From a bacterium (GTDB lineage: Bacteria > Desulfobacterota > Desulfocorpusculales > Desulfocorpusculum): a stretch of DNA of 64,000 nt. The stretch covers positions 440,989 to 504,988 of the forward strand of contig JBBFLE010000001.1 in the NCBI GenBank assembly GCA_037481695.1. The letters run 5' to 3'. A model generated the notes under the pieces. The model searched no databases and was not told the origin of the DNA. It saw nothing but the letters and a program-made list of their open reading frames with translations. The position numbers were made by a program, and so were the translations under genes. The number at the start of each line of letters is the position of its first letter. Position 1 is the first letter of the stretch. This document shows, piece after piece, positions 59,874 through 64,000 of the stretch.

Positions 59874-60335
59874 TTCTCGGTAAGATGAAAGTGTTCTTTG
59901 AAAGTAGAGGTGACAAAAATGTTGTGAAGCTATTAAAGGGAAATCAGATGCGAACGCGGCGTCACTCCATGGAATGAGTTCTTGGGCCCTCGAAAATCGT
60001 ATTAGGGGAGTGATTATCAAGGGAGGTGATCTTCTATATCACCGGAACTTGACATCAAGGATGCTTTGGCCTAGAGTTCGAGGGAAACTGAAAGATGTGA
60101 TTAGTAAACCCCTGTAGGTTTTTTCAACATAGAGCTAAGTATTTGTTTTTCTTTCTTTTTGTTGAAATCGGGTTCGCGAGGTTTACTAATGCCAGAAAAT
60201 CGCATGATATTGAAGCCTTGCAATATCGGTCCTACAAATTTGTATGATAAGTTTGACCTTGTCTGGGGCAAAATTGGGAGGTTTACTAATCGCCGTCTGC
60301 AAACCCGCACCAGCACTGGGCTCGTACGGGGTGCT
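59874..60335 (+). other. leader region of the CRISPR array
   Basis: The 462 bases before the first repeat are the likely leader, because the opposite end of the array is degenerate and the repeat's 3' end ATTGCGAC faces away. It contains an inverted-repeat-bounded segment (60099-60291, separate entry). No gene or cas remnant is recognised. Confidence 0.6.
60099..60291. repeat. 193-base segment bounded by 12-base inverted repeats
   Basis: GATTAGTAAACC at 60099-60110 and its perfect reverse complement GGTTTACTAATC at 60280-60291 bound the segment. An extra direct copy, GGTTTACTAAT, lies at 60180-60190. It could be a miniature inserted element within the leader or paired protein-binding sites. 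No target-site duplication was established. Confidence 0.6.
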
Positions 60336-61330
60336 GTCCGAAGATAGCCCCGATCACAAAGGGGATTGCGACTGGACTTTCCACAGGGCAGAGCCCTCAC
60401 GCAAATTCGTCCGAAGATAGCCCCGATCACAAAGGGGATTGCGACGGGTAGCGGGTGCTCAAGCACCCACCACCCCGGGTAGTCCGAAGATAGCCCCGAT
60501 CACAAAGGGGATTGCGACATATAGCTCTTTATGAGCTATATTTCGTGCTTCTTGTCCGAAGATAGCCCCGATCACAAAGGGGATTGCGACTCTAAAAGCT
60601 GAGAAGGGTGGAATCCTGACAAGATATGTCCGAAGATAGCCCCGATCACAAAGGGGATTGCGACGAGGGGATAGAAAATGAAGGCGGGCACCCCGCCTTG
60701 GCGTCCGAAGATAGCCCCGATCACAAAGGGGATTGCGACGTTGATATGAAGTTCTTTACTGCAAGCTTGTTTTGTCCGAAGATAGCCCCGATCACAAAGG
60801 GGATTGCGACCGTGCAGTCTCCCGCACAAGAGTCTGAAGCGCCGGAGTCAGTCCGAAGATAGCCCCGATCACAAAGGGGATTGCGACATGGTGCCACGGC
60901 GCGACGTGGCATTGAAAATCCGGTCCGAAGATAGCCCCGATCACAAAGGGGATTGCGACAACGTGAAGTCGAACACCCACTTGGAGTTGACCATCAGGTC
61001 CGAAGATAGCCCCGATCACAAAGGGGATTGCGACTTATATCCTCGGCCAGCTTTCCTTCCCCGTCCAAGCTGTCCGAAGATAGCCCCGATCACAAAGGGG
61101 ATTGCGACTCTCTCAGACGACCCAGGACCGCATCGAGATTTACCTGTCCGAAGATAGCCCCGATCACAAAGGGGATTGCGACCTTCTTGTCCTCTTTCTC
61201 TCTTTTCTCTCCGCCATGGGTCCGAAGATAGCCCCGATCACAAAGGGGATTGCGACAGCCTTGAGCAATCCAAGGCCCTTGGGCTTCTCCTTCGTCCGAA
61301 GATAGCCCCGATCACAAAGGGGATTGCGAC
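60336..61330 (+). CRISPR. CRISPR array, 14 repeats of 37 bases, 13 spacers
   Basis: The repeat starts GTCCGAAGATAGC, continues CCCGATCACAAAG and ends GGGGATTGCGAC. All 14 copies appear identical by eye, starting at 60336, 60409, 60482, 60554, 60628, 60703, 60774, 60851, 60923, 60998, 61072, 61146, 61220 and 61294. Spacers are 34-40 bases. The repeat's 3' end ATTGCGAC resembles the ATTGAAAC tag of many type I/III repeats, supporting plus-strand orientation. CCCC and GGGG inside the repeat can pair around nine bases. No cas gene lies within the window. The type therefore cannot be assigned. A truncated repeat follows at 61544-61571. Confidence 0.97.
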
Positions 61331-61543
61331 CCTGGGGCTTCGCCCGCACAGAGCACGGAGCACAGAGCACAGGGTCCAAAACAATCTTCAACGGGCCAGC
61401 CTATCGGCTCATTTCTCGGCTTACATTCACACATCTCGTTCAGGATCCCAGCCGAGCGGTTTCTAAAAGCCTCTTCTTAGGTTTTCCCCAGAGGTTTTCT
61501 TGTTGCTTTTAGCTCTGTGCCCTGTGCCCTGTGCTGCTTCTGC
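61331..61543. repeat. hairpin element, copy 1, at the distal end of the array
   Basis: A left arm with repeated GAGCACAGAGCAC-type units (about 61344-61374) faces a right arm CTCTGTGCCCTGTGCCCTGTGC (about 61514-61535). The middle is unlike a gene. Copy 2 at 61572-61795 shares both arms but a diverged middle. It abuts the last full CRISPR repeat. Confidence 0.6.
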
Positions 61544-61571
61544 TAGCCCCGATCACAAAGGGGATTGCGAC
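61544..61571 (+). CRISPR. truncated CRISPR repeat
   Basis: The 28 bases from TAGCCCCGATC to ATTGCGAC equal the last 28 bases of the array repeat. It stands 213 bases beyond the last full repeat, between two copies of the hairpin element. It is a degenerate distal relic of the array, or was carried there by the duplication. Confidence 0.85.
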
Positions 61572-61795
61572 CCTGGGCTTCGCCCGCACAGAGCACGGAG
61601 CACAGAGCACAGGGTAAAGACCAAACTACTGGCGGGCTGCTCCACCGGCTCATTTCCTGGCGCACGCACCAGCACCTCGCTCCGGATCCTGGCCAAAGGC
61701 CTTCAGGAAACTTCCTACACGAACCTTGGCCCGTATGCTCTGTGCCCTGTGCTGCTTCTGCTAGCCCTGTGCCGCTTCTGCTAGCCCTGTGCCCA
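61572..61795. repeat. hairpin element, copy 2
   Basis: It begins with the same GGGCTTCGCCCGCACAGAGC region as copy 1 and closes with CTCTGTGCCCTGTGCTGCTTC. The closing arm holds a further tandem repetition of GCTTCTGCTAGCCCTGTGCC-type units (about 61751-61795). It appears to be a REP/BIME-like or MITE-like element. No gene is encoded. Confidence 0.55.
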
Positions 61796-62050
61796 CAGGC
61801 GTTGAGCTTGCATTGGGGTTTGGAGAACCTATAGTTTTACCTGGTTCTGGAAAGGTTAGAGTCTTTGGGCAATTCGGATTTGAAAAATGCTGTGGCGATT
61901 GGTTGCAAAATTGGAGAAAATGTTCTAGAAAGTACTAAACTTTCTTTCCTTTTTGACCGGGGCAAACGTTCAAGCTAGTAGCTCTCTAATTCAACTTAAA
62001 ACAGATCCTTGGGCGCATTATGAAAAGAGTCATCTTCAGGAGGGGGAAAG
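61796..62050. other. intergenic region before the propeller gene
   Basis: About 255 AT-rich bases hold the presumed promoter of the next gene and end in a GGAGGGGG ribosome-binding site. Nothing else is recognised. Confidence 0.4.
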
Positions 62051-63373
62051 ATGATGAGAAAAGCCTTCTTAGTCATCGGGTCATTGGCTTGTATAGGCAT
62101 TCTCGGCTGGCGTGTTGAAGCAGCCCTCCTCTGGGAAAGCCATTACGACCGCTCGGCCAACGGTGAGGACGTGGTCAACGCCATGGCCGTAAAGGGTAAC
62201 ACCGTCTTTGCTGCCGGATACACTTCTACCACCGAGGGTGGAAGGGCATTCACCGTCAGGGCGTACTCTTCTCAGGATGGATCGGTTCTTTGGGAAGACC
62301 ATTACGACCGTGAGGGTACCGGTGCGGATGTCGCTAATGCTCTGGCCCTAAAAGGCAACATACTCTTTGCTGGAGGTTACACGTCCACGGCCAGTGGGGG
62401 AAGAGCCTTTTCGGTGAGAGCTTATGACGTAACCAATGGATCTCTGCTTTGGGAAAGCCATTACGACCACCAGGGTTCATACAACGATGAGGTGAAGGCC
62501 CTGGCGGTGAAGGGCAATGTGTTAATCGCTGGCGGTTTTGTCTCAACAGGTGGAGGTTCGGCGGCCTTTGCCGTAAGAGCTTACTTCACAAAAGATGGTT
62601 CTTTGCTTTGGGAGGATGTCTATGATCCAGGTACAAGTGTTGATGAAGTCAATGCTCTTGCGGTTAAGGGGAATACGGTGTTTGCGGGTGGGTTGGCAAG
62701 GGGCGCTTTTACTTTAAGAGCCTATTCTATCAAAAAAGGCCTTCTTATATGGGAGGATGTTTACAATCGGGAGGGGGGTGGCGCTGACCTCTTATACGCT
62801 TTAGCAGTAAAAGGCAACAGAGTCTTTGCAGGCGGTTATACGGAGACCGTGTCGGGTGGCAAAGCTTTTACTGTAAGGGCTTACTCGGCCAAAGATGGTT
62901 CGTTGCTTTGGGAGAATCATTACGACCGGGAAGGCGCTCTAAGGGATGAAGTGCGAGCATTGACAGTTGCGGCAGGGGTTGTGATTGCAGGGGGAAACAC
63001 AACATCATCCTTCGGTGGGAGTTGCTGGAGTGTGAGAGCTTACTCTCCCCAAAACGGCACGCTTCTCTGGGAAGACCAGTACGACCGGGAAGCGAGCAAC
63101 GCCTTGGATGGGATTTATGCTCTGACAGCCAAGGGAAGTATTGTCTTTGCCGGAGGGTACACCCAAACGTCGGCTTCTGGATATAGTTTCAGCGTCCGGG
63201 CCTACACAGCCAAAAAAGGAACCCTGTTGTGGGAGGATCACTATGATAGGGAAGGCACCAGGAACGATTTTGTCTATGCTTTGGCTGTTGGAGGAAACAA
63301 GGTTTTTGCGGGAGGTTTTACGGAGACTACAGCTGGGGGTCGAGCCTTTAGCATCAGGGCCTATGATTTTTGA
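62051..63373 (+). CDS. secreted eight-repeat beta-propeller protein
   Basis: The 440-residue exported protein has a signal peptide (residues 1-24, ending RVEAA). Eight tandem repeats of about 53 residues follow. Each starts LLWExxYDRE, continues with DxVxALAVKGNxVFAGGYT and ends GGxAFxVRAYxxKDGS. The number and strand pattern suggest an eight-bladed propeller related to PQQ/WD40-like folds. No enzymatic residues or anchor are seen. The role is unknown; such proteins bind ligands or partners in the envelope. The repeats are close to each other in sequence, which suggests recent internal duplication. AGGAGG precedes the ATG. Confidence 0.85.
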   Translation: MMRKAFLVIGSLACIGILGWRVEAALLWESHYDRSANGEDVVNAMAVKGNTVFAAGYTSTTEGGRAFTVRAYSSQDGSVLWEDHYDREGTGADVANALALKGNILFAGGYTSTASGGRAFSVRAYDVTNGSLLWESHYDHQGSYNDEVKALAVKGNVLIAGGFVSTGGGSAAFAVRAYFTKDGSLLWEDVYDPGTSVDEVNALAVKGNTVFAGGLARGAFTLRAYSIKKGLLIWEDVYNREGGGADLLYALAVKGNRVFAGGYTETVSGGKAFTVRAYSAKDGSLLWENHYDREGALRDEVRALTVAAGVVIAGGNTTSSFGGSCWSVRAYSPQNGTLLWEDQYDREASNALDGIYALTAKGSIVFAGGYTQTSASGYSFSVRAYTAKKGTLLWEDHYDREGTRNDFVYALAVGGNKVFAGGFTETTAGGRAFSIRAYDF

Positions 63374-63599: not shown

Positions 63600-64000
63600 A
63601 TGGGAAGATTACCTCGCATTCATATCCCCGAGCATCCACACCATGTTGTCATGCGGTGCAACAACAAAGAGGCCCTGTTCAATCAGGCATCCGATGTTCA
63701 GAAGTTTCTCCATCTCCTGGGCTATTTTAAGAAACGCCACAATTACAGACTCTACGCCTATACCATCATGTCGAACCATGTGCACCTGCTGTTGGACCCC
63801 GGCCAGATAGTCCCGCTGGCTGAAGTAATGAGAGACATCATGGCAAACTTCGCCAAATGGTACAACTGGAAGCACAATCGCAGGGGTCACTTCTGGGCCT
63901 CACGCTATCATCCTACAGTCATCCAGGACGACACCTATGCCTTGACGTGCATGCGATACATCCACAGAAATCCGCTGCGAGCTGGGATAGTGGGAGTGGC
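63600..64000 (+). mobile_element. REP-associated (Y1, IS200-like) transposase, cut by the window end
   Basis: The 133 codons visible start MGRLPRIHIPEHPHHVVMRCN and show the HUH motif MSNHVHLLLDP (about residues 58-68). The tail FWASRYHPTVIQDD and MRYIHRNPLRAGI carries the catalytic-Tyr helix. This is the RAYT/Y1_Tnp family. The typical length is about 180-240 residues, so the 3' part lies beyond 64000. It nicks single-stranded DNA at REP palindromes; one is adjacent. Confidence 0.92.

Follow-up and report, generated by a model that had tools for sequence, protein, structure and literature searches.

Hairpin-forming spacers are enriched in a CAPP-associated type III-A CRISPR array and in related type III arrays

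Spacers of a type III-A CRISPR array located in the window (the whole stretch of 64,000 nucleotides analysed, from a Desulfocorpusculum genome) contain perfect hairpins in excess of chance expectation. The excess recurs in related type III arrays and several of the hairpins are natural features of the source from which the spacers were taken. It is probable, in our judgement, that type III-A acquisition preferentially captures the inverted repeats that invading elements naturally carry as stem-loops.

The array occupies positions 60336-61330 on the forward strand and consists of 14 perfect 37-nt repeats (GTCCGAAGATAGCCCCGATCACAAAGGGGATTGCGAC) and 13 spacers of 34-40 nt. A second array with an identical repeat lies 28 kb away on the same contig (L024:9844-10392). 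The leader of the window array (60178-60335, forward strand), in which GAGGTTTACTAAT occurs twice, was recognised by its likeness to that of the second array; positions 60229-60335 are nearly identical, and 60178-60228 partly alike, to the sequence upstream of the latter (L024:9700-9843). Since the last 105 bp or so preceding repeat 1 are nearly identical between the two leaders, the leader is placed at the left end of the array. The region 60099-60291 contains GATTAGTAAACC together with two copies of GAGGTTTACTAAT (inverted and direct), motifs that are also found in the second array's leader and are possibly a binding site. A trailer element at 61331-61570 (forward strand; CCTGGGGCTTCGCCC...CACAGAGCACGGAGCACAGAGCACAG...) terminates in a 27-nt partial CRISPR repeat (61544-61570) and restarts at 61571. 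Units of this kind, approximately 226-240 bp in length (CCTGGGGCTTCGCCCGCACAGAGCACGGAGCACAGAGCACAGGG...), are repeated behind both arrays (window 61331-61800; C1:530392-532420), with copies terminating in the 27-nt partial repeat. The core of the unit has seven exact copies in the genome, every one beside the two type III-A arrays, and a related sequence is also present behind the unrelated array of contig 7. Adjoining the array, positions 62051-63373 encode a secreted-looking protein of 440 amino acids with about eight repeats around LLWEDHYDREG and VRAYS, and at 63600-64000 the start of a gene (MGRLPRIHIPEHPHHVVMRCNN...) was recognised by eye as similar to the REP-associated tyrosine transposases (TnpA_REP type, Y1).

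Hairpins were scored as the longest perfect stem per spacer with a loop of 3-8 and compared with 2,000 dinucleotide shuffles. The five hairpins written out in the first-pass annotation are all present, letter for letter, on the forward strand: AGGGC-AGA-GCCCT in spacer 1 (60385-60397; 5 bp; shuffle p 0.095; z for folding as single-stranded DNA -2.3), GGGTGC-TCAA-GCACCC in spacer 2 (60453-60468; 6 bp; p 0.10; z -1.5), ATATAGCTC-TTTAT-GAGCTATAT in spacer 3 (60519-60541; 9 bp; 0 of 2,000 shuffles, p <0.0005; z -6.5), AAGGCGGG-CAC-CCCGCCTT in spacer 5 (60681-60699; 8 bp; p 0.001; z -2.8) and TGCCACG-GCGCGA-CGTGGCA in spacer 8 (60892-60911; 7 bp; p 0.015; z -1.5). The hairpin of spacer 3 is flush with the 5' end of the spacer. 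Stem lengths had been given as 6-9 bp, which is correct for spacers 2, 3, 5 and 8 but not for the 5-bp stem of spacer 1, and a further 6-bp stem in spacer 13 on the same strand (GCCTTG-AGCAATC-CAAGGC, 61258-61276; p 0.13) had been overlooked. Only spacers 3, 5 and 8 are individually significant, the values for spacers 1, 2 and 13 being close to 0.1.

Taken over the 13 spacers, stems of at least 5 bp number 6 against 1.9 expected from shuffles (p 0.006). For stems of at least 6 bp the count is 5 against 0.53 (approximately tenfold), for at least 7 bp it is 3 against 0.13 (approximately twentyfold) and for at least 8 bp 2 against 0.04, and no shuffle reached any of these three counts. The hairpin excess in this array is thus confirmed by permutation. 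Some of the 13 spacers of this one array may, however, stem from repeated sampling of one element. Four of the five hairpins first listed are proximal to the leader, the position of which at the left end was confirmed; the corresponding trend in pooled CAPP-linked arrays is weak (p 0.07).

One spacer of the second array, TTAGCTAGCCCACTAGTCTCTAGTGGGCTAGCTTTGT, is a perfect hairpin of 14 bp (z -7.3 as single-stranded DNA). The two type III-A arrays together (20 spacers) contain 6 stems of at least 6 bp, with 0.77 expected, and 4 of at least 7 bp, with 0.20 expected. An array on contig 7 (L026:11-7047), which adjoins III-B and Cas3/Cas7/Cas1/Cas4 genes, yielded no stem of at least 6 bp among its 91 spacers, where shuffles predicted 2.8. 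The type III-A arrays differ significantly from it at thresholds of both 6 bp (6/20 versus 0/91; Fisher 1.7e-5) and 7 bp (Fisher 8e-4). Because the contig 7 array belongs to the same genome, the base composition of the host does not explain the excess, and the difference therefore lies between the systems. The contig 7 array falls below the shuffle expectation, as if it avoided self-folding spacers.

Between the two arrays lie csm1-5 (L023:12359-18843), followed by genes for Csx20, a CARF-HEPN protein of the Csx1/Csm6 family (E 7e-104), two Cas6 proteins, a TPR protein, a TPR-AEP primase-polymerase, Cas1 and Cas2. The locus is a complete type III-A system (Csm1-5) with a CAPP adaptation module. 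Cas10/Csm1 and Csm2-5 matched TIGR02578, TIGR01870, TIGR02582, TIGR01903 and TIGR01899, all above the curated cut-offs, and an HD domain (PF01966) was identified in Csm1, in agreement with the definition of type III-A by a Cas10/Csm1 with HD and palm domains together with Csm2-5. The CARF-HEPN protein and Csx20 are predicted ancillary effectors of the cyclic-oligoadenylate type. The CAPP protein combines TPR with an AEP-TOTE domain (PF22548, 6.7e-45) and was detected by PADLOC as a PrimPol 'adaptation polymerase' (1.4e-85); its family profile matched the solved chains 7nqd and 7nqf at 1e-63, and the AEP catalytic motifs LDLD, SGYKGVH, EVFPKQ and KLPLGVH are intact and conserved across 15 family members. 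With cas1 starting approximately 13 bp behind the CAPP gene on the same strand, the module has the characteristics of CAPP_A (TPR type), its predicted primase/polymerase sharing an operon with cas1 and cas2 in which no Argonaute gene was recognised. Capture of RNA through a reverse transcriptase fused to Cas1, as raised in the first-pass annotation, is not supported by the gene content: no RVT_1 match was obtained in the 4.10-Mb assembly (52 contigs, 100% estimated completeness), neither cas1 gene of the genome carries an RT fusion and a primase-polymerase is present instead.

The excess recurred when arrays of related loci were analysed. The discovery set was made up of loci of the phylum that encode CAPP homologues, with arrays detected by a simple script; stems of at least 7 bp were present in 66 of 1,068 spacers (6.2%) against 8.9 from shuffles, and in 1.19% of 36-mers from the flanking DNA of these loci. 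In a replication set of other loci and phyla, for which GTDB genomes were scanned using the CAPP alignment, 21 of 434 spacers (4.8%) carried such stems, against 3.8 expected. Pooled CAPP-linked arrays from many phyla yielded a rate of 5.8% among 1,502 spacers (95% bootstrap over loci 4.2-7.6), with no hairpin excess in the four arrays L073, L091, L094 and L096. As a non-type-III control, arrays adjoining the phylum's other cas1 genes were used, the subtype not being confirmed array by array; they reached 1.95% (1.25% excluding the I-C-like array L117), significantly lower than the CAPP-linked arrays (Fisher 2e-7). Type III-A loci in which no CAPP homologue is present were intermediate at 11 of 320 spacers (3.4%; binomial p 0.002 versus flanking DNA). 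CAPP arrays therefore have the highest rate among the groups, while within type III the difference between arrays with and without CAPP lacks significance (p 0.10), nor do those without CAPP differ significantly from the non-type-III arrays when L117 is counted in (p 0.14). The proportions of spacers with a folding-energy z below -2 (11.8%, 10.0% and 6.9%) rank the groups as the stems do. A bias specific to CAPP is not supported, since type III arrays without CAPP are enriched as well. Furthermore, the phenomenon extends beyond type III: in the I-C-like array L117:10922-16647 (genome G014), 10 of 83 spacers have stems of at least 7 bp, a proportion as high as in type III. One hairpin was sampled twice in L117.

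Searches by blastn of 50,697 phage and 72,556 plasmid records found no protospacer for any of the 20 spacers, and exact patterns in viral contigs found none for three spacers. For most hairpin spacers of other hosts blastn against phages was likewise negative, and viral contigs scanned with exact patterns yielded no protospacer in any of seven scans. Outside the arrays the host genome contains no match to any of the 20 spacers, and the hairpin spacers of genomes G333 and G210 likewise have no self matches; host terminators, REP elements and self-targeting were rejected as the source on these grounds. The original proposal that acquisition favours structured sources is partly supported: the enrichment is real, recurs in related arrays and points to such sources, whereas host terminators or REP elements and RNA capture by RT-Cas1 found no support. 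Overlapping spacers provide evidence of origin. Spacers L068#85 and L146#13 contain an identical whole hairpin with differing end points, L149#9 and #12 derive from a single long, imperfect inverted repeat, read on opposite strands and with an identical loop, and L069#2, 16, 19 and 79 together with L147#5, 24 and 46 sample a single family of terminator-like sequences; in the I-C-like array, L117#29 and #31 likewise overlap in this manner. Because the same hairpin is carried independently by overlapping spacers, several hairpins were present in the source and are natural. Approximately 6 of the 115 related-array spacers with stems of at least 6 bp are terminator-like, with an A-tract beside the stem, and look like terminators of foreign elements.

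The hairpins might alternatively have been made during acquisition, the CAPP protein extending the 3' end of a self-folded single-stranded prespacer so that the hairpin is absent from the invader. The adjacency of the primase-polymerase to cas1-cas2 and the snap-back DNA synthesis displayed in vitro by RT-Cas1/Cas2 (PMC11014452) accord with such copying, as does the position of the stems, of which 16 of 87 reach exactly to the spacer's 3' end and 5 of 87 to its 5' end, compared with about 9% each in flanking DNA (3' excess p 0.004; asymmetry p 0.03). This excess is, however, not significant for stems of at least 6 bp, and 56 of the 87 hairpins are interior, with at least two unpaired nucleotides on both sides, flanks that copying would not leave. 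The same hairpin was moreover acquired independently from opposite strands, in cases that include L149#9, the only testable 3'-flush example in a CAPP array, and hairpins also occur in type III arrays without CAPP. Snap-back copying may lie behind the modest 3'-flush excess; it does not account for the interior majority, and as a general explanation it is unlikely. Reverse transcription of structured RNA such as terminators into spacers is less likely still. The A-tracts beside some stems of related arrays resemble antisense copies of intrinsic terminators, but few hairpin spacers have this appearance, the genome lacks both an RVT_1 match and a Cas1-fused RT, and the activities described for CAPPs (PMC8211822) are those of DNA-dependent polymerases and primases.

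If the invaders were simply rich in hairpins, any CRISPR system sampling them would exhibit an excess. The richness of the I-C-like L117 fits this account, as does the derivation of several spacers of one host from a single terminator-like family. In two genomes carrying both systems, by contrast, the excess is confined to the CAPP-linked type III arrays; comparison of the two systems in G333 gave 22 of 161 against 2 of 85 spacers. This contrast would be void had the two systems encountered different invaders, and three further genomes with both systems showed no significant difference. Hairpin-rich invaders could contribute to the excess, and we regard them as a rather improbable explanation of the whole. 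Chance within one short array can be given hardly any credence: only 3 of the 13 spacers are significant individually, but the joint permutation gave p <0.0005, and independent replication across hundreds of spacers refutes chance for the pooled set.

The preferred reading, capture of natural stem-loops, would most likely involve single-stranded or locally unwound DNA as the substrate, in which the hairpin would provide the duplex required by Cas1-Cas2, itself the presumed selecting step. The adjoining CAPP protein could prime or fill in folded single-stranded DNA and may copy the hairpin. The hairpins are best explained as a fingerprint of acquisition rather than of crRNA function; since a self-folding crRNA should guide poorly, the excess more likely arose from acquisition than from selection. 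A stronger version, in which CAPP drives the capture by initiating synthesis on folds of single-stranded DNA, or filling them in, and passing the duplex to Cas1-Cas2, is put forward only tentatively and seems rather unlikely. If true, CAPP modules would be acquisition systems for single-stranded, hairpin-bearing invaders.

A hairpin signature in standing arrays permits comparison across thousands of genomes without infection experiments. It would mean that natural type III systems, beyond two laboratory hosts, record those parts of invaders that fold, a habit that may be of use against elements with single-stranded stages. Whether type III Cas1-Cas2 recognises secondary structure itself or through another factor is a question raised in a review (PMC9048733), and CAPP is a candidate for such a factor.

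The hairpin preference of type III-A adaptation is already known from experiments. According to that review, the type III-A systems of Streptococcus thermophilus and Staphylococcus epidermidis preferentially acquire spacers from single-stranded DNA stem-loops (Zhang 2021, Aviram 2022), favouring stem-loop regions such as sso, oriT and the coding strands of tRNA and rRNA, a preference explained by single-stranded DNA hairpins acting as substrates. Those systems are RT-free, like the present one. They were studied through newly acquired spacers, whereas the present data derive from the standing arrays of bacteria that are uncultured or have been little studied, and the review mentions no primase-polymerase for them of the kind found in the adaptation operon here. 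As far as the searched literature shows, the visibility of the preference in standing arrays over many phyla, with a possible link to CAPP, is new. Polymerase, primase and strand-displacement activities and contact with Cas1-Cas2 have been published for other CAPP members (PMC8211822). Among these, MpCAPP of Marinitoga piezophila (CAPP_A) shares with the present protein the TPR and AEP domains, a C-terminal cysteine region, cas1 and cas2 in line and a type III effector, but differs in that the operon described here has no recognised Argonaute gene; spacer structure is not the subject of that paper, the main text of which does not mention hairpins. The RT-Cas1 of Marinomonas mediterranea (PMC11014452) is likewise a polymerase dedicated to adaptation and capable of snap-back synthesis, although it is a reverse transcriptase, an enzyme that the present system lacks.
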